A stretch of DNA of 64,000 nucleotides, from positions 31,113,473-31,177,472 of the forward strand of contig NC_069122.1 in the NCBI RefSeq assembly GCF_026914265.1, written 5' to 3'. This document shows, piece by piece, positions 51,838-63,900 of the stretch. Source of the DNA: Mya arenaria. Lineage: Eukaryota > Mollusca > Bivalvia > Myida > Myidae. The stretch's first letter is position 1. Each line of letters starts with the position of its first letter. Made by a program: the position numbers and the translations under genes. Below the pieces are notes generated by a model. The model made no database searches and was not told where the DNA came from. It saw only the letters and a list, made by a program, of their open reading frames with translations.

Positions 51838-52330
51838 TTAAATAAGGAACAGTTTATATCTGTTGAATTTTAAATAGGAAACAGTTTATTTCTGTTGAAC
51901 TTTAAATAAGAAAAACAGTTTATTTCTGTTGAACTTTAAATAGGAAACAGTTTATTTCTGTTGAACTTTAAATAGGAAACATTTTTTTCTGTTGAATTCT
52001 ATACTGTGAGGAAACAGTTTTCAACTGTTGAACTTTCTATAGCAAACAGTTTATTTCTGTTGAACTTTAAGTAGGAAACAGTTTTTTCTGTTGAATTTTA
52101 TACAGGAAACCGTTTTCAACTGTTGAACTTTCTATAGCAAACAGTTTATATCTCTTGAACTTAAAATAGGAAAAAGTTTATTTATATTGAACTTTAAATA
52201 GGAAACAGTTTATATCAGTTGAACTTTAAATACCGGTAGGAAACTGTTTAATTCTGTTGAACTTTAAATACAAATTTTTACTTCTGTTGATTTTTAGGAA
52301 GGAAACAATTTATTTCTGTTGAACAAGCAT
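51838..52330. repeat. 32-bp minisatellite carrying the polycystin stop codon and AATAAA words
   Basis: Minus-strand unit GTTCAACAGAAATAAACTGT plus TTCCTATTTAAA, about 15 diverged units. The unit nearest the gene contains the last codons CTT GTT CAA CAG AAA and the TAA stop. About six units keep AATAAA on the sense strand of the gene, so the array is a run of potential polyadenylation hexamers. Confidence 0.85.
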
Positions 52331-53256
52331 CTTCAGTTTTGAAGTGATATAGTTTATGTGATCCAGATGATTCTTCTTGCCCTTGATTCTGTCCCTTGCT
52401 TCTATGCGGCCCACATTGAGAATAGCTTGGACAAATGTCATCACACCAAAATAGACGGTAAACACAAAACTGAACAGGAAGACGACACCGATGATTCGGT
52501 TGTACTCGTAGAGACCAACAAAGTCTGCTATGCCCATTAACAGACTTACATTGGATACCAACGCATCACCAAGGGTTTTGTAGCCCCTGAACACGGAGTT
52601 GAACAGTAGATATGAAAAGGCGGCAAAAGCGAAAGTGGTGATGGCGAAGATGAGTAAAAAAGATAACAGATGCATATGGACTGCCGACAAAGTGTACGAT
52701 AAGAGGAACATCTTGCGGTTAAATATCAGCAACTTGATAGTTATCAATATGACTGTTGTCATAAGCCCACCCATCACGTACATAAGGACAGCATCCCAGA
52801 AAACAGCAGGATAGAAGCTGACAAATGTTTCACCCTTGGAGGACTTGAAATCATCCATCACACTTCCAACAGCTAGTACTCTTTGAACAAACATAACCAC
52901 AACAGCTACAGCCATTCCAATCTGACATAATTCTATAATCGTCCAAATGCTAGAAAAGTATTCAGACTTTCCTTGTTTTCTGAACTTCTTCACTTCAATA
53001 ATGATGAAAGTAAGATTGAAGGCCGCAAAGAGAACTTCACATACGGCCACAAACTTTCCATAGCTACTGGAGTAGTGATGTAGACTCGTAGAAATTTCTT
53101 GATGACTTGGGTACACTCCACCAGTGTTGGTAAACTCAAACATGTACACACCCACGGTGAACATGTCCACATTCGGGTTATAGAAAGTAAACTCCAGAAA
53201 TACTGCACGAGTATTTCGATCAATCCATCCTCTGGTTTCCAAGTCCTCAAGTGAAT
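52310..53256 (-). CDS. Polycystin terminal exon (TOP end, S2-S6)
   Basis: Acceptor TTTTGCAG; 314 codons plus TAA. Hydrophobic helices run near exon residues 62-85, 95-120, 150-190, 195-220 and 255-285. No EF-hand or long coiled coil follows S6, unlike PKD2. Confidence 0.95.
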
Positions 53257-56200
53257 CTGCAAAATCCATGTAAATAAGCTTATTCATAAGGGTTAATGTC
53301 AGTGTTTTTTTTTGGAATTACTTTTACAGCCTCTGCCTTGCAATTTGGGAAAAAAAAACTTTGGGAAAAATACAATATCAGGCCAAAACAGCTAATATAT
53401 TGGCTAATATGCATACATTTTGCTTTGAAAGAGTAAGTCTTGTCAAGATTTTGTTTATATTCCAAGAAATTCATTGCTTGTTATTCATTAACATAATCTG
53501 CATTTATCAAATTGGGAAAAAGTTAGAAAATTTTGGGAAAAATGGACAGTTTTTCGCAAGGGGAAACAGCCTTAGGAGTAAATTACAACAAAAAAAAATC
53601 AACTGAATGTAATTATGGTACACTCATATTTTTCAATACATACACAAGTTTCAGTTTAAACTGTAAGGATGTTGTGCTATCTAACTGTTTCAAAGCTTAA
53701 TGTTAGCCTAATTTGGCTACTAACGGTCAAGTACGGAACAGACCAATTGTTCAGAACTTTGTTTAATTAACGATGTGAACTTTTAAACGTGAAATAGTTC
53801 ATGATATCCTCAAATATTTAAAAAAAATAAGAAGTACAGCTGAAACAGTTGTCTCAAATCCTGTTAGAAATAGTGTATCAGTGTATAAGAAAGTATTTGA
53901 AATTTGACAAAGATTTTTTTAACATTATTTTTAACTTTAACAAAGTTCTGAACAATCGGTCCAATGTAACACAATAACTAATTAATTCTATTTGGCCAAC
54001 TGAAAAACTAAGAGTCTCTAAATTTGGCCAGGAACAAAACAAAACTAAGAGTCTCTAAATTTGGCCATGAAAAACAAAAACAAACTGAGAGTCTCTAAAT
54101 TTGGCCAGGAACAAAAAAACTTAGAGTCTCTAAATTTGGCCAGGAAAGAAACCCTCTAAATCTATTAGCAACAAATGCCTGGATGTTAACAGAATCACCA
54201 ACAAAAGGCAATAAGAACTCATCATGTACATCAAGCCATTCGAATAATTTCTCCCTGCACATCATATATTTCTTGACTCATGTTATTGTTATTTTAAAAG
54301 TTAAGCTCAAGAAAAATGTTCCATTGCTGAAAGCAGGTCTTGGTAAAAAAAACAATTTGAGTGCTAAAAACCTAAATGTTTGATTACCCTTAACACAAAA
54401 TCAGGTTGGTATGACCTCAGGAATATCAGTATGTGTATACCAAGTGATAAACTGAGTCATAAATGCTACATGGGAAGCTAATATTTTGCTTTGAATGAAG
54501 ACTTTAAACAAAGATAATTTCACTTTTTCTTTACCATTTTAAATGAAACATAACAGAGTCTACGCTGCTAATGGGGCCCCGCCTTCAGTCTTTTACTAGA
54601 GTATGATTGTGAGTTTAGTTTCTTAAGTACTTCGACAAACCTTAACAAAACGTCCGTCTGACAGAGCACTGGCAAAATATTATTTTGAAAAGAGGTTTGT
54701 CGAAGTGTTTGATAAAACTAATCACATTATCAAACTCCGGTAATAAAACAAAGATGAGGTTCCTTAAGCAGCATAAACTGCCCTTTGTTCCATTTAAATT
54801 GGTGTATTTAAAGAAAAGATATCTTAGTTTTAAGTGTTCATTTTAAGCAACACACACTGAATATGATGATTTAAATAAGTTAACAGTTTATAACTGTAGA
54901 AGGTAGGGAGAAAGTCTGTAACACACCTGTATCCCGCTGCTCCTGGCCAGACAATGGTAGGACATATCCACCCCCAGAGTATGTGGCATGTGAGCCCACG
55001 AATGGAAGGGTCTTCAGGGACCAGCCAGACTGGTGAATCCATGGGTTAATAGCATAATCTGAATAGCACACCACCAGAAAATACAGGGAATGCATTTACT
55101 GTCATAATAGTATTATTGTAACATGACCACCATAATATTATACAATGTTTACTATCCATATGACTTTAATCAACAAGCCACTGTCAGTATTGTATTAGTT
55201 AATAAACTCCAAATCTCGTCTTCAATTTTATTTATCAAGTTGAACAAGGACTTAGGAGCATAACTAAACAAGAGGGCCCTGAAGGCCCTGTATCACTCAC
55301 CTGATCCAATAAAGATCATCAAGAATAACATTCTGAACAAGTTCCATGAACATATGGTCATAAATGTGGCCTCTAGAGTGTTAACATGCTTTTCCTTAAA
55401 TTTGACCTGGTGACCTAGTTTTTGACCACACATGACCCAGATTCAAACTTGGCCTAGAACTAATCAATATATACATTCTGACAAAGTTTCATGAACATAC
55501 ATACAGTCATAAATATGACCTCTAGAGTGCTAACAAGCTTTTCCTTTGATTTGACCTTGTGACCTAGTTTTTGACTGCACATGACCCAGATTCGAACTTG
55601 ACCTAGAAATGATTTATATAAACATTCTGACCAAGTTTCCTGAAGATACAGTCATAAATGTGACCTCTAGAGTGTTAACAAGCTTTTCCTTTAATTTAAC
55701 CTGGTGACCTTGTTTTTAACCCCAGATGACCCAATATCGAACTCGTCCAAGATTTTTGTGTGGGTAACCTTCTCCTTTCATTAAGATTGTGCCCAATTTG
55801 TGACCTCTGGGGTGTTAACAGTCAAATTATTGACGACGGACGACTACAACGGACGATGGACACAGGGCGATCACAATAGCTCACTTTGAACACTTCGTAC
55901 TGAGGTGAGTTAAAAATATTAAAAACTTTTGGGTCTTGCTGGTCTTGCTGCACACTGTTAATGATAACATGTATTAAAACTTTCATGTAATTGTCTTGAA
56001 AAATATTTTTGGTTTGTTATGGCTAATATAAAGCTTTTGCTCGACTTTTTCAGACTATCAAGGGCTAATAATACAGTCACCATTTTAAGTGATATTGGAT
56101 GATAATTATGTGAAGCTTCATCAAATACTGGGATGCTCCAGGATTATTTATAGTTGCCACTGTCCTCCCAAGTGAGGGAATATAATGATTTTAGTGAAGG

Positions 56201-59200
56201 AATATGATGGCTTACCTTCATCCAACACTGGGATACTCCAGGATTGTTTATAGTTGCCACTGTCCTCCCCAGTGAGGGAATATGATGGCCTACCTTCATA
56301 CAACACTGGGATACTCCAGGATTGTTTATAGTTGCCACTGCCCTCCCCAGTGAGGGAATATGATGGCCTACCTTCATAGAACACTGGGATACTCCAGGAT
56401 TGTTTCTGTCCTCCCCAGTGAGGGAATAGGAGGGCTTACCTTCATCGAACACTAGGATACTCCAGGATTGTTTATAGTTGCCTCCGTCCTCCCCAGTGAG
56501 GAAATATCATGGCTTACCTTCATCGAACACTGGGATACTCCAGGATTGTTTATAGTTGCCTCTGTCCTCCCCAGTGAGGGAATATGATGGCCTACCTTCA
56601 TCCAACACTGGGATACTCCAGGATTGTTTATAGTTGCCTCTATCCTCCCCAGTGAGGGAATATGATGGCCTACCTTCATCCAACACTGGGATACTCCAGG
56701 ATTGTTTATAGTTGCCACTGCCCTCCCGTGAGGGAATATGATGGCCTACCTTCATAGAACACTGAGATACTCCAGGATTGTTTATAGTTGCCACTGCCCT
56801 CCCTTGAGGGAATATGCTGGCTTACCTTCATCAAACACTGGAATCCTCCAGGATTGTTTCTAGTTGCCACTGTCCTCCCCAGTGAGGTGAGGGAATATGA
56901 TGGCTTACCTTCATCCAACACTGGGATACTCCAGGATTGTTTACAGTTGCCACTGTCCTCCCCAGGAGTGTTTATAGTTGCCACTGTCCTCCCCAGTGAG
57001 GGAATATGATGGCCTACCTTCATCAAACACTGGAATCCTCCAGGATTGTTTATAGTTGCCACTGCCCTCCCCAGTGAGGGAATATGATGGCCTACCTTCA
57101 TTGAACACTGGGATACTCCAGGATTGTTTATAGTTGCCTCTATCCTCCCCAGTGAGGGAATATGATGGCCTACCTTCATCCAACACTGGGATACTCCAGG
57201 ATTGTTTATAGTTGCCACTGTCCTCCCCAGTGAGGGAATATCATGGCTTACCTTCATCTAACACTGGGATACTCCAGGATTGTTTATAGTTGCCTCTGTC
57301 CTCCCCAGTGAGGGAATATCATGGCTTACCTTCATCCAACACTGGGATACTCCAGGATTGTTTATAGTTGCCACTGTCCTCCCCAGTGAGGGAATATCAT
57401 GGCTTACCTTCATCCAACACTGGGATACTCCAGGATTGTTTATAGTTGCCTCTGTCCTCCCCAGTGAGGGAATATCATGGCTTACCTTCATCCAACACTG
57501 GGATACTCCAGGATTGTTTATAGTTGCCTCTATCCTCCCCAGTGAGGGAATATGATGGCCTACCTTCATCCAACACTGGGATACTCCAGGATTGTTTATA
57601 GTTGCCACTGCCCTCCCGTGAGGGAATATGATGGCCTACCTTCATAGAACACTGAGATACTCCAGGATTGTTTATAGTTGCCACTGCCCTCCCTTGAGGG
57701 AATATGCTGGCTTACCTTCATCAAACACTGGAATCCTCCAGGATTGTTTCTAGTTGCCACTGCCCTCCCCAGTGAGGGAATATGATGGCCTACCTTCATA
57801 GAACACTGGGATACTCCAGGATTGTTTCTGTCCTCCCCAGTGAGGGAACAGGAGGGCTTACCTTCATCGAACACTGGGATACTCCAGGATTGTTTATAGT
57901 TGCCTCCGTCCTCCCCAGTGAGGAAATATCATGGCTTACCTTCATCGAACACTGGGATACTCCAGGATTGTTTCTGTCCTCCCCAGTGAGGGAATATGAT
58001 GGCTTACCTTCATCGAACACTGGGATACTCCAGGATTGTTTATAGTTGCCTCTATCCTCCCCAGTGAGGGAATATGATGGCTTACCTTCATCCAACACTG
58101 GGATACTCCAGGATTGTTTATAGTTGCCTCTGTCCTCCCCAGTGAGGGAATATGATGGCCTACCTTCATCCAACACTGGGATACTCCAGGATTGTTTATA
58201 GTTGCCTCTATCCTCCCCAGTAGGGGAATATGATGGCCTACCTTCATCCAACACTGGGATACTCCAGGATTGTTTATAGTTGCCACTGCCCTCCCGTGAG
58301 GGAATATGATGGCCTACCTTCATAGAACACTGAGATACTCCAGGATTGTTTATAGTTGCCACTGCCCTCCCTTGAGGGAATATGCTGGCTTACCTTCATC
58401 AAACACTGGAATCCTCCAGGATTGTTTCTAGTTGCCACTGTCCTCCCCAGTGAGGGAATATGATGGCTTACCTTCATCCAACACTGGGATACTCCAGGAT
58501 TGTTTACAGTTGCCACTGTCCTCCCCAGGAGTGTTTATAGTTGCCACTGTCCTCCCCAGTGAGGGAATATGATCGCTTACCTTCATCGAACACTGGGATA
58601 CTCCAGGATTATTTATAGTTGCCACTGTCCTCCCCAGTGAGGGAATATGATGGCTTACCTTCATCGAACTCTGGGATACTCCAGGATTGTTTATAGTTGC
58701 CACTGTCCTCCCCAGTGAGGGAATATGATGGCTTACCTTCATCGAACACTGGGATACTCCAGGATTGTTTATAGTTGCCACTGTCCTCCCCAGTGAGGGA
58801 ATATGATGGCTTACCTTCATTGAACACTGGGGTCCTCCAGGATTGTTTATAGTTGCCACTGTCCTCCCAAGTGAGGGAATATGATGGCTTACCTTCATTG
58901 AACACTGGGGTCCTCCAGGATTGTTAATAGTTGCCACTGTCCTCCCCAGTGAGGGAATATGATGGCTTACCTTCATTGAACACTGGGATACTCCAGGATT
59001 GTTTATAGTTGCCACTGTCCTCCCAAATGAGGGAATATGATGGCTTACCTTCATTGAACACTGGGATCCTTCAGGATTGTTAATAGTTGCCACTGTCCTC
59101 CCCAGTGAGGGAATATGATGGCTTACCTTCATTGAACACTGAGATACTTTGGATTGTTTATAGTTGCCACTGTCCTCCCAAGTGAGGGAATATGATGGCT

Positions 59201-61689
59201 TACCTTCATCGAACACTGGGGTCCTCCAGGATTGTTTATAGTTGCCACTGTCCTCCCAAGTGAAGGAATATGATGGCTTACCTTCATCGAACACTGGGGT
59301 CCTCCAGGATTGTTTATAGTTGCCACTGTCCTCCCAAGTGAGGGAATATGATGGCTTACCTTCATCGAACACTGGGGTCCTCCAGGATTGTTAATAGTTG
59401 CCACTGTCCTCCCCAGTGAGGGAATATGATGGCTTACCTTCATCGAACACTGGGGTCCTCCAGGATTGTTTATAGTTGCCACTGTCCTCCCCAGTGAGGG
59501 AACATGATGGCTTACCTTCATCGAACACTGGGATCCTCTAGGATTGTTTATAGTTGCCACTGTCCTCCCCAGTGAGGGAACATGATGGCTTACCTTCATC
59601 GAACACTGGGGTCCTCCAGGATTGTTTATAGTTGCCACTGTCCTCCCCAGTGAGGGAATATGATGGTTTACCTTCATCGAACACTGGGATCCTCTAGGAT
59701 TGTTTATAGTTGCAAATGTCCTCCCCAATGAGGGAACATGATGGCTTACCTTTATCCCACACTGGGATACTCCAGGATTGTTTACAGTTGCCACTGTTCT
59801 CGCAAGTGAGGGAAAATGACGGTTTTAGTCAGGGAATAAAATGACTTACCTTCATCCAAAACTGGGGTCTTCCAGGATGGTTTATAGTGAGGAATTATGA
59901 TGTTTTTAGTGAGAGAATATGATGGCCTACCTTCATCCAACAATGGGATGCTCCATGATTTCTTGTAGTTGCCACTGTCCTCGCCAATGAGAGAATATGA
60001 CGGCTGACAGCCAACAGGAAGTCCTTTCACAATTTCTGGTGTACAAGAATCTGAAAACACAATTTTGCAATACATAATCTTTATTTGATGGGTAGTGTTC
60101 CATAGGTGGTCTGAAATATAATACTATTACATTACATAGGGACACTGATATTGAATATACATGTTATTTGGCCTAATTATTGCCTTGCAAACAAAAGCTT
60201 GTTTCCTAACATAGGTGAGGCTATCTAAACTATTTTTTGAAGTTCCCTTACATTTTGCGTTACAAGATACAGGAATTTTCATTTAAGTCGGGTATATAAT
60301 ACAAAAAAAAATATGTGTTCAATGAGCTATTTCCGACATGAATAACAAAAACATACATAACTATGAATTGGTGACCTGGAAATTAAAGCATATAGTTTTA
60401 AATAGGTTACACATGGAAAAAGTATTTACAAAAGCCTTTTATTTTCATGCACAAGTACAAAACAAGATGCCAATTTGGCAACGCCACATTTTTCATTTGA
60501 TGATGCATTATTTGACTATGCAATTTTGCACTGACCCTACATTTTAGCTAATGACATAGTTTTTAAACCAAGAAGACTCATATTTATACTTTTATCAGAA
60601 ATTATGTTCATACAAATAATCTGATCAAATTCCATGAAGATCAAAAGAAACCATAAATTTTACAATTTGATAAAAACTATTGAATACTTGGAATAAAAAC
60701 TTTAACGTAGAATTCCGCCTGGTTTTCGCAATTCTTAAACACATTTTTTTTTCTATGAAAAAGTAAGATGGATTAATGTGACTTAATATGATAACATCGA
60801 CTAGTTTTTCCGATGGTGTGGCCTCTTACCTTGACCATGACCTTTGAGTTACATGGGTCTTCTGCACAACACGCCACCTCATTATGATGTCAACCTTCAT
60901 GGTAGTTTTTTTTAAAAATCCTATAATGCATGGTCAAGAAAAAGCCTGGATAAGGATCATTTCAATTTTTGAGCTCTTACCTTGACCTTTGCAAAATTAT
61001 ACAATGCTGACTTCTTGATAAAGTAGAAGATGTCATTGAGAAAGATGTTGATGTTGCTCTTTCAATTAAGTTAATTCCTGCTTGTTTATGAAAACATTTG
61101 CAGTTTAAAAGCGTTTATTCAAGTCCATATCTGTTTTTAAAGATGCACTATTACTCCCTTACAAAATTTACCACAATTGATACAATTGTTTTAATATACC
61201 AAAAAGGACGAATAAATGTCAAAAACAATGGTTTTTATGAAGGATACCGAGTTTAATTTGAAAGAAAGGTGCAGAATACACTGTATTTCTACCTTATAAG
61301 ATGATTGTAGATCACAGTAAATCTTATAGCACTCACCAATCAATTAATATTTTCCATATATGCATTATTTTTAAGTAAGAAGTAAAAGGTTTATCACACA
61401 AAATTAATGTTTGCTATACAAGTGTATGAATTGATTTTGAATAAGAGTGTCACTTAAACAAATTGTGTGTACAAAAATACATTGTATTTTGTAAATGCAG
61501 TTATTAATAATGGCAATACAATACTGGAGAAAACCAACCTCCAACCCTAAGCTGTCTTAGCCTGTATGGTCCAACCAGAAAGAATTCTGAGGCTGTGGAG
61601 ATCTCCCTCCTGCCATATTGAGAGGCTACCTTCATCACAGGGATAACAGTGTCCTCCAGGTACTGGTATACACCACCTATGCTATTTAC
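52310..61689 (-). CDS. Polycystin-1-like (PKD1L-type) channel protein, 3' four exons
   Basis: Exons 61539-61689, 59931-60050, 54927-55058 and 52310-53256 join in phase (each split G|AT) and encode about 450 C-terminal residues; earlier exons lie right of the window. The first three give the C-terminal half of the extracellular polycystin/TOP domain: FFLVGPYRLRQLRV, DSCTPEIVKGLPVGC, PWIHQSGWSL and TYSGGGYVLPL. The last exon has WIDRNTRAVFLEFTFYNPNV and then five hydrophobic helices, S2 to S6, with a pore-like stretch LVSNVSLLMGIADF before S6 (GVVFLFSFVFTVYFGVMTFV) and a short basic tail. Polycystins are TRP-related membrane cation channels or channel subunits in cilia, fertilisation and sensing. 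The order and residues favour the PKD1L/PKDREJ side over PKD2, but which member cannot be told without the N-terminus. Confidence 0.93.
53300..53600. repeat. Possible transposon fragment in polycystin intron
   Basis: GGGAAAAA words in both orientations (53345-53375, 53510-53570) resemble the CAGGGCTTTTTC-type remnants elsewhere. Confidence 0.3.
53985..54150. repeat. Tandem repeat, about 36-bp unit, four copies
   Basis: AAACTAAGAGTCTCTAAATT TGGCC units, the last two slightly shorter. Confidence 0.85.
54155..54926. other. Polycystin intron; short inverted repeat
   Basis: ACTTCGACAAACC near 54632 faces GGTTTGTCGAAGT near 54690, a 13-bp perfect inverted repeat with a loop of about 45 bases. Nothing else recognised. 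Confidence 0.5.
54927..55058 (-). CDS. Polycystin exon (TOP domain, GGGYV motif)
   Basis: Acceptor CTATTCAG, donor GTGTGT. Encodes DYAINPWIHQSGWSLKTLPF and TYSGGGYVLPLSGQEQRDT. Confidence 0.93.
55268..55915. repeat. Dispersed mollusc-type repeat with CTCACCTG ends
   Basis: Begins AAGAGGGCCCTGAAGGCCCT and TATCACTCACCTGATCC, ends GTACTGAGGTGAGTTAAAA. Inside, CATGAACAT..GTCATAAATGTG and GACCTCTAGAGTGTTAAC recur three times. In the polycystin intron. Confidence 0.72.
56115..59815 (-). repeat. 78-bp minisatellite derived from a polycystin exon, about 47 units
   Basis: Minus-strand unit reads YSLTGEDSGNYKQSWSIPVF then DEGKPS, i.e. the 3' half of exon 59931-60050 and its 5' splice site (GATGAAG|GTAAGCC). 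78 is a multiple of three, so frames of up to 314 codons occur, but the frame leading out of the true exon stops before the array. Units near the exon tend to read WRTP, those further away WSIP. A block of shortened units recurs three times (56713, 57604, 58280). Confidence 0.95.
59931..60050 (-). CDS. Polycystin exon that seeded the 78-bp minisatellite
   Basis: Acceptor GTTTTCAG, donor GTAGGC. Encodes SCTPEIVKGLPVGCQPSYSL and GEDSGNYKKSWSIPLLDE. The two Cys match the conserved TOP-domain disulphide region. Its 3' half plus donor equals the repeat unit of 56115-59815. Confidence 0.93.
60060..61538. other. Polycystin intron between the 59931 and 61539 exons
   Basis: 60800-61000 keeps GACCTTTGAGTTACATGGGT-type remnants of the 10978 repeat family. 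No exon recognised. Confidence 0.4.
61539..61689 (-). CDS. Polycystin exon (RLRQLRV motif)
   Basis: Acceptor TATTGCAG, donor GTTGGT. Encodes VNSIGGVYQYLEDTVIPVMK and FFLVGPYRLRQLRVG, the diagnostic start of the conserved polycystin block. Confidence 0.93.
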
Positions 61690-61794
61690 CTGCAATACAA
61701 TATTCTCAATTCAATGGCCTTTAGAAAATTAACATGCAACATTAAATGCATTTAACCATTTTCCCTTTAAAGTTGAATTCAAATTCTTTGTGGC

Positions 61795-63252
61795 CTTTCC
61801 ATAGCACTTCAAACACTTTGTCACCTTTCCTTTGCACTTCAAACACATTGTAACCTTTCGCTAGCACTTCAAACACATTGTAACCTTTCACTAGCACTTC
61901 AAACACATTGTAACCTTTCACTAGCACTTCAAACACAATGTAACCTTTCCCTAGCACTTCAAACACATTGTAACCTTTCCCCTTAGCACTTCAAACACAT
62001 TGCAACCTTTCACTAGCACTTCAAACACATTGTAACTTTTCACTAGCACTTCAAACACATTGCAACCTTTCACTAGCACTTCAAACACATTGTAACCTTT
62101 CACTAGCACTTCAAACACATTGTAACCTTTCACTAGCACTTCAAACACATTGTAACCTTTCACTAGCACTTCAAACACATTGTAACCTTTCCCCAGCACT
62201 TCAAACACATTGTAACCTTTCACTAGCGCTTCAAACACATTGTAACCTTTCACCAGCGCTTCAAACACATTGTAACCTTTCACTAGCACTTCAAACACAT
62301 TGTAACCTTTCACTAGCACTTCAAACACATTGCAACCTTTCACTAGCACTTCAAACACATTGCAACCTTTCACTAGCACTTCAAACACATTGCAACCTTT
62401 CACTAGCACTTCAAACACATTGTAACCTTTCACTAGCACTTCAAACACATTGTAACCTTTCACTAGCACTTCAAACACATTGCAACCTTTCACTAGCACT
62501 TCAAACACATTGTAACCTTTCACTAGCACTTCAAACACATTGTAACCTTTCACTAGCACTTCAAACACATTGTAACCTTTCACTAGCACTTCAAACACAA
62601 TGTAACCTTTCACTAGCACTTCAAACACATTGTAACCTTTCACTAGCACTTCAAACACATTGTAACCTTTCACTAGCACTTCAAACACATTGTAACTTTT
62701 CACTAGCACTTCAAACACATTGCAACCTTTCACTAGCACTTCAAACACATTGTAACCTTTCACTAGCACTTCAAACACAATGTAACCTTTCACTAGCACT
62801 TCAAACACATTGTAACCTTTCACTAGCACTTCAAACACATTGTAACCTTTCACTAGCACTTCAAACACATTGTAACCTTTCACTAGCACTTCAAACACAA
62901 TGTAACCTTTCACTAGCACTTCAAACACTTTGTGACCTTTCTATAGCACTTCAAACACATTGTAACCTTTCACTAGCACTTCAAACACTTTGTGGCCTTT
63001 CCATAGCACTTCAAACACATTGTAACCTTTCACTAGCACTTCAAACACATTGTAACCTTTCACTAGCACTTCAAACACATTGCAACCTTTCACTAGCACT
63101 TAAAACACATTGCAACCTTTCACTAGCACTTCAAACACAATGTAACCTTTCACTAGCACTTCAAACACATTGCAACCTTTCACTAGCACTTAAAACACAT
63201 TGCAACCTTTCACTAGCACTTCAAACATATTGTAACCTTTCACTAGCACTTC
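61795..63252 (-). repeat. 30-bp minisatellite, about 48 units, left block
   Basis: Unit CACTAGCACTTCAAACACAT plus TGTAACCTTT. On the gene's sense strand it reads FEVLVKGYNV without stops for 325 codons (62928-61951). Single-base variants (TGCAACC, TTTTCAC, TTAAAAC) mark blocks of recent copying. It lies in the intron 5' of the RLRQLRV exon, with no leader or splice context for a protein. Confidence 0.95.
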
Positions 63253-63588: not shown

Positions 63589-63900
63589 TAGCACTTCAAA
63601 CACATTGTAACCTTTCACTAGCACTTCAAACACATTGCAACCTTTCACTAGCACTTCAAACACATTGTAACCTTTCACTAGCACTTCAAACACATTGCAA
63701 CCTTTCACTAGCACTTCAAACACATTGTAACCTTTCACTAGCACTTCAAACACATTGTAACCTTTCACTAGCACTTCAAACACATTGTAACCTTTCACTA
63801 GCACTTCAAACACATTGTAACCTTTCACTAGCACTTCAAACACATTGCAACCTTTCACTAGCACTTCAAACACTTTGTAACCTTTCCCCAGCGTTTCAAT
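63589..63900 (-). repeat. 30-bp minisatellite, right block, about ten units
   Basis: Continues the array after the MITE. The last units decay (TTTCCCCAGCGTTTCAATCA). Confidence 0.95.

Follow-up and report, generated by a model that had tools for sequence, protein, structure and literature searches.

A tandem array of donor-bearing exon copies directly behind a TOP-domain exon in four polycystin paralogs of Mya arenaria

Background

How does the end of a coding exon, together with its splice donor, come to be repeated dozens of times in the intron that follows, and do the copies matter for splicing or for the protein? This question is raised by a polycystin locus of the bivalve Mya arenaria, which we analysed within a stretch of 64,000 nucleotides (the window). 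A first-pass annotation, made from the sequence alone, had described about 47 units of 78 bp in one intron, each copying the last part of the preceding exon along with the exon-intron junction, and had suggested that they might alter donor choice, lengthen the TOP domain of the protein, or simply act as a decoy. New in the present analysis are the presence of the array in four paralogs, the wholly exonic nature of its unit, and exon-end arrays in a second polycystin gene and in a trypsin gene.

Results

The host gene is a polycystin on the minus strand, whose exons, joined by eye, match Polycystin_dom (profile positions 4-198, E-value 2.8e-35) and PKD_channel (E-value 7.2e-29). The array does lie at the place first described, at 56116-59930, directly behind exon 59931-60050 and within the intron between this exon and exon 54927-55058 (Table 1). 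With the array left out, the joined exons encode an uninterrupted TOP domain (Pfam PF20519), and across exon 54927-55058 residues 13-81 of the joined protein match profile positions 70-136. Counted by the GATGAAG/GT junctions that delimit them (here and below a slash marks the junction), the units number 48 rather than about 47; the length of 78 bp is exact for 32 of them, whereas the other 16 measure 68-109 bp. Exons in the window were mapped for the polycystin gene only, and the units of its other arrays were compared with the rest of the window. Two of these other arrays, at 61794-63252 (48.6 copies) and 63589-63886 (9.9 copies), have 30-bp units and contain long open frames on both strands, of up to 447 codons.

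Table 1. Location of the array, of its host exons and paralogous copies, and of the arrays in two other genes. Positions without a contig prefix are those of the window.
Feature	Position	Strand	Size	Remark
Window	C1:31113473-31177472			
TOP-domain exon of polycystin, source of the copied end	59931..60050	-	120 nt	acceptor and donor read; joined exons match PF20519
Exon's last 78 nt, segment homologous to the unit	59931..60008	-	78 nt	starts GTCAGCC; paralogs B, C and D have GTAAGCC
True splice donor GTAGGC	59925..59930	-		begins at the array's first base; identical in four paralogs
First unit	59850..59930	-	81 bp	in frame with the exon and free of stops (27 codons)
First array donor GTAAGT	59844..59849	-		array's best score; in 4/4 paralogs
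Whole array	56116..59930	-	48 units	
CTTCAC past the last unit (GTTCAC in paralog D)	56110..56115	-		possibly the decayed original donor (putative role)
Next exon, splice partner of exon 59931-60050 in the gene model	54927..55058	-		splice sites read
Downstream exon region, end of PF20519 and PKD_channel	52310..53260 (limits approximate)	-		
Paralog A (window copy)	C1:31.17M		48 units, 3815 bp	
Paralog B	C1:34.09M (locus C1:34081600-34091500)		55 units, 4406 bp	
Paralog C	C1:31.59M		25 units, 2013 bp	
Paralog D	C5:57.21M		17 units, 1306 bp	
Array in second polycystin gene	about C1:22273632-22278810 (locus C1:22270200-22280100)	-	76 units	
Array in trypsin gene	C2:49172200-49176200, from locus position 1533 on			

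In an ungapped alignment, the last 78 nt of the exon and the unit consensus agree at 66 of 78 positions, whereas 300 shuffled versions of the exon gave no more than 34; this bears out the proposed origin of the units from the exon. The corresponding identity is 68/78 in the paralogous loci B and C and 66/78 in D. The match ends at a GT inside the exon, the 20 nt before it agreeing with the tail of the unit at 6 positions (7 in D). Where the window copy (A) reads GTCAGCC, the exons of B, C and D have GTAAGCC, and therefore the unit, which runs from GTAAGCC to GATGAAG and is bounded by GT and AG, is exonic from end to end. Donors are thus indeed copied with each unit, as the annotation had it, but the unit consists of exon sequence throughout and not of an exon end plus the start of an intron. 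Since the homology starts at the exon-internal GTAAGCC and stops at the end of the exon, the donor presumably in use today is homologous to coding sequence.

The array adjoins the exon, whose own donor, AAG/GTAGGC, is formed by the first GT of the array; together with the inner junctions this makes 48 AG/GT donors. The GT of the inner junctions is kept in 47/47 cases in A, 54/54 in B, 24/24 in C and 14/16 in D. Array donors had been said to fit the consensus better than the true GTAGGC, and this agrees with our scores for 32 of the 47 inner donors, obtained with a generic donor matrix whose frequencies come from general knowledge; by comparison, a score as high as that of the true donor is attained by 0.7% of the 3373 GT sites on the opposite strand of the window. 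The first array donor, GTAAGT, has the top score of the array and is present in all four paralogs. The array is followed by GTTCAC in D, which scores as a weak donor (0.16), and by CTTCAC in A, B and C. Units 1 and 2 and the final unit rank among those least like the exon, and the first steps in the making of the array are thereby hidden.

The array occupies the same intron in all four paralogous loci, with unit numbers that vary more than twofold (Table 1). The first two units (81 bp, 83 bp in D; then 100 bp) and the last unit (100 bp, 103 bp in D) are common to A-D, so that the array predates their split. The flanks are 98.6-99.4% identical among A, B and C, and 92.3-93.7% identical between these and D; the spans of A, B and C nevertheless range from 2013 to 4406 bp, which marks a fast turnover of the array. 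The array of B contains an exact copy of the exon's final 49 nt, followed by copies of the first units; exchange has thus involved the end of the exon. Locus-specific homogenisation was considered and found to be weak, the mean unit distance being 0.066-0.080 within loci vs 0.073-0.081 between them. Loci A, B and C are about 99% alike beside the array, one of them is inverted, and they represent recent duplications within 3 Mb. We also observed that exon 59931-60050 is 90% identical between A and D, with several residue changes, vs 93% for the stretches before the exon and after the array.

The nearest paralog outside this group (C3:62.538M, locus C3:62533300-62543200) has no intron at this point and keeps both flanking splice positions. 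More distant paralogs carry introns close by within this loop, which differ in phase or are displaced by a few codons. A gain of the intron in the array lineage and a loss in the C3 paralog are both compatible with these comparisons. The acceptor, at 55059-55060, lies about 1 kb beyond the array and does not derive from the copied segment; because this segment supplies no acceptor, the case departs from the classical intron gain by tandem duplication.

If the donor GTAAGT were used, 81 nt open in the exon's frame would be inserted in A, B and C; the corresponding unit of D has 83 nt and is closed. Extension of the exon over several units was rejected, as a stop enters with the second unit in A, B and C and already with the first in D. 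The earlier statement that the units keep the frame thus holds for the lengths of 33 of the 48 units, which are divisible by three, but not for the exon's running frame, which is stopped in unit 2; likewise, the suggested growth by multiples of 26 residues reduces to the first unit (27 codons) in A, B and C and to nothing in D. The insertion site is in a loop of variable length among paralogs. Retention of this first unit (81 bp, 27 residues) in three of the four paralogs would be the likeliest visible effect, and the array may leak a one-unit isoform.

We found no sign of selection on the donors or on the frame of the array in the codon-position diversity of A-D or in the column conservation of 99 pooled 78-bp units. 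Diversity at the three codon positions is 0.022, 0.047 and 0.060 in A and 0.055, 0.034 and 0.040 in B, and the pattern is inconsistent across the four loci; 33 of the 78 columns are invariant in the pooled units, and the GT is no better kept than many other columns. As for acceptors, the ends of the 48 units score at most 2.7 with a median below 0, one AG within a unit reaches 3.2, and the real acceptors have 3.5 and 3.1, on a crude score set from general knowledge that discriminates poorly, 14-18% of 323 other AGs reaching the real ones. On this score, recursive splicing and cryptic exons inside the array are possible.

Two further genes have arrays of a similar kind. In a second polycystin gene, at C1:22.27M, 76 units, mostly of 70 or 57 bp, stand behind an exon ending in CAG/GTATGT. 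The unit is identical to the last 70 nt of the exon at 62/70 positions, and the preceding 20 nt agree at 5/20. It is a different TOP-domain exon with an array of the same build, whose period is not a multiple of three, and all six extensions tried run into a stop. As about 16 residues of this exon are within the Pfam match, its status as an exon rests on these residues, the open frame and the donor. By eye, the phase of the exon misfits the plainest downstream acceptor, and the gene may be damaged or may use another acceptor. At C2:49.17M, a trypsin exon (PF00089, E-value 8.9e-13) with the AAHCF motif at its end is followed by units, often of 58 bp, which comprise the exon end (19/20 of its last nucleotides), the donor and the intron start (27/32). 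The trypsin unit includes intron sequence, so units made purely of exon sequence cannot be taken as general. A possible fourth case is present at C1:5222600-5223600 on the minus strand, where an open stretch of 73 nt, with no Pfam match, stands after a good acceptor and is followed by 32-bp donor-bearing units.

Tandem repeats were listed for 26 polycystin matches, in stretches of about 3 kb. The array at C1:22.27M came from a search of the family, and that at C2:49.17M from a search for donor arrays. For the latter, three spaced donor motifs were counted genome-wide along with their reversed forms, giving 2744 vs 806 matches for AAGGTAAG, a count swollen by an AAGGT simple repeat, 380 vs 370 for CAGGTAAGT and 1521 vs 777 for CAGGTATGT. 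Because matches are not arrays and one of the three motifs has no excess, we draw no conclusion on a genome-wide excess. The first matches listed for CAGGTAAGT and CAGGTATGT (about 100 each) contained 15 clusters, 12 of which were inspected by eye on their reading frames. An exon at the 5' edge was firm in two of them (C1:22.27M and C2:49.17M), possible in one (C1:5.22M) and not seen in six, and the edge was not reached in three. Among the matches listed, no exon was seen at the start of most donor-motif arrays that could be judged.

Discussion

We consider it probable that a tandem duplication at the end of the exon seeded a mainly passive minisatellite and relocated the splice donor, and that the original donor decayed. 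Such a duplication would have taken in the exon's terminal 78 nt, from the exon-internal GTAAGCC to the last base, and the new junction AAG/GTAAGCC would have been a stronger donor than the previous one. Splicing would then have shifted to the donor of the first copy, whereby later copies became intronic and, being without effect on the protein, would have been free to expand and shrink. The present donor would accordingly be a copy of former coding sequence, the original one, now past the last unit, would have decayed, and the donors of the array would be passengers that possibly compete with the true donor. The GTTCAC or CTTCAC past the last unit may be this original donor, an identification that hangs on one base in paralog D. 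We infer the order of events, the original donor and the identity of the donors used from the sequence.

The array might instead act on splicing, its strong donors binding U1 and competing with the true one, with longer isoforms, intron retention or slower splicing that scales with unit number. We regard this as possible but unlikely: the inner donors that outscore the true one and the GT kept at nearly all inner junctions would fit it, as would a comparable array in human ABCA7, which gives one-unit retention and in which skipping of exon 19 rises with length (PMC5954066), but the GT is not specially conserved among the many invariant columns, longer extensions run into a stop, and unit numbers differ more than twofold among the paralogs. 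Less likely still is an origin of the intron itself in the tandem duplication, AG/GTAAG at a copy junction having split an unbroken exon. The unit does begin with GT and end with AG, and the C3 paralog is contiguous here with both neighbouring splice positions kept; against this, the acceptor lies past the array in unrelated sequence, and since introns in this loop also occur in other paralogs, a loss in C3 is equally easy.

The two remaining alternatives have very little probability. Were the array translated, its units would be small coding repeats of 26 residues serving as exons, and the open unit consensus, the 33 lengths divisible by three and open runs reaching 320 codons in one frame or another could be read in this way. 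We nevertheless rejected translation on account of stops, frameshifts and the lack of a consistent codon-position pattern in A-D; besides, the frame of the exon runs into a stop in the second unit (in D, the first), and the TOP domain is unbroken when the exons are joined without the array. Finally, the likeness of exon and array alone leaves its direction open, so that the array could be the source and the 3' part of the exon an exonised unit. We give this the least credence, as the residues of the exon match PF20519 and align with the TOP domains of array-less paralogs, the C, Y and E columns being invariant in six sequences.

Seeding of the array by a duplication of the exon end, which we prefer, points to a simple way for former coding sequence to take over as splice donor. 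Paralogs with 48, 55, 25 and 17 units that share the same true donor and have a stronger donor 81 or 83 bp further on also form a natural series for studying donor choice by the spliceosome where dozens of nearly identical sites are on offer. Because exon-end arrays are present in at least three genes of this genome (two polycystins and one trypsin), minisatellites may be seeded repeatedly at exon ends. A broader generalisation, which we put forward tentatively and hold to be rather doubtful, is that exon 3' ends are repeated seeding sites of minisatellites in this genome, that the working donor can move to a coding copy (a donor relay), and that strings of donors can supply in-frame isoforms, for example a 27-residue insertion into the TOP domain in three paralogs.

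Judged by titles and the beginnings of abstracts, we recognised no other array of donor-bearing exon copies among the publications listed by our searches, beyond the works cited here. The closest precedent is the VNTR in intron 18 of human ABCA7, which is linked to Alzheimer risk, whose first GT is the donor of the exon and for which retention of one unit in transcripts is reported (PMC5954066). As in Mya, the array is intronic and sits right behind the exon, its further units offer donors, and the unit number varies widely; however, the ABCA7 unit is 25 bp rather than 78 bp long and is not called exon-derived in the part of that report drawn on here, whereas the Mya units copy a coding exon and the array is common to four paralogs. 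In the potato RdRp gene, a tandem duplication led to a donor drawn from what had been exon sequence (PMC4974935), and there too the duplicated exon sequence is bounded by AG/GT, but the potato case is a single duplication, whereas Mya has a large array, an acceptor that is not from the unit, and a new intron only as a candidate. Duplicated proto-splice sites have been described in Drosophila (PMC2891723). In human segmental-duplication paralogs, internal tandem repeats at exon-intron boundaries alter gene structure and form new introns (PMC2812944); these resemble the Mya arrays as boundary minisatellites of differing repeat number in recent paralogs, but average 4 units of 30 bp, compared with 17-55 units in Mya, where the exon structure seems to be kept. 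Relative to these systems, what differs in Mya is a large array of exon copies, in paralogs that differ in unit number and with its likes elsewhere in the same genome.
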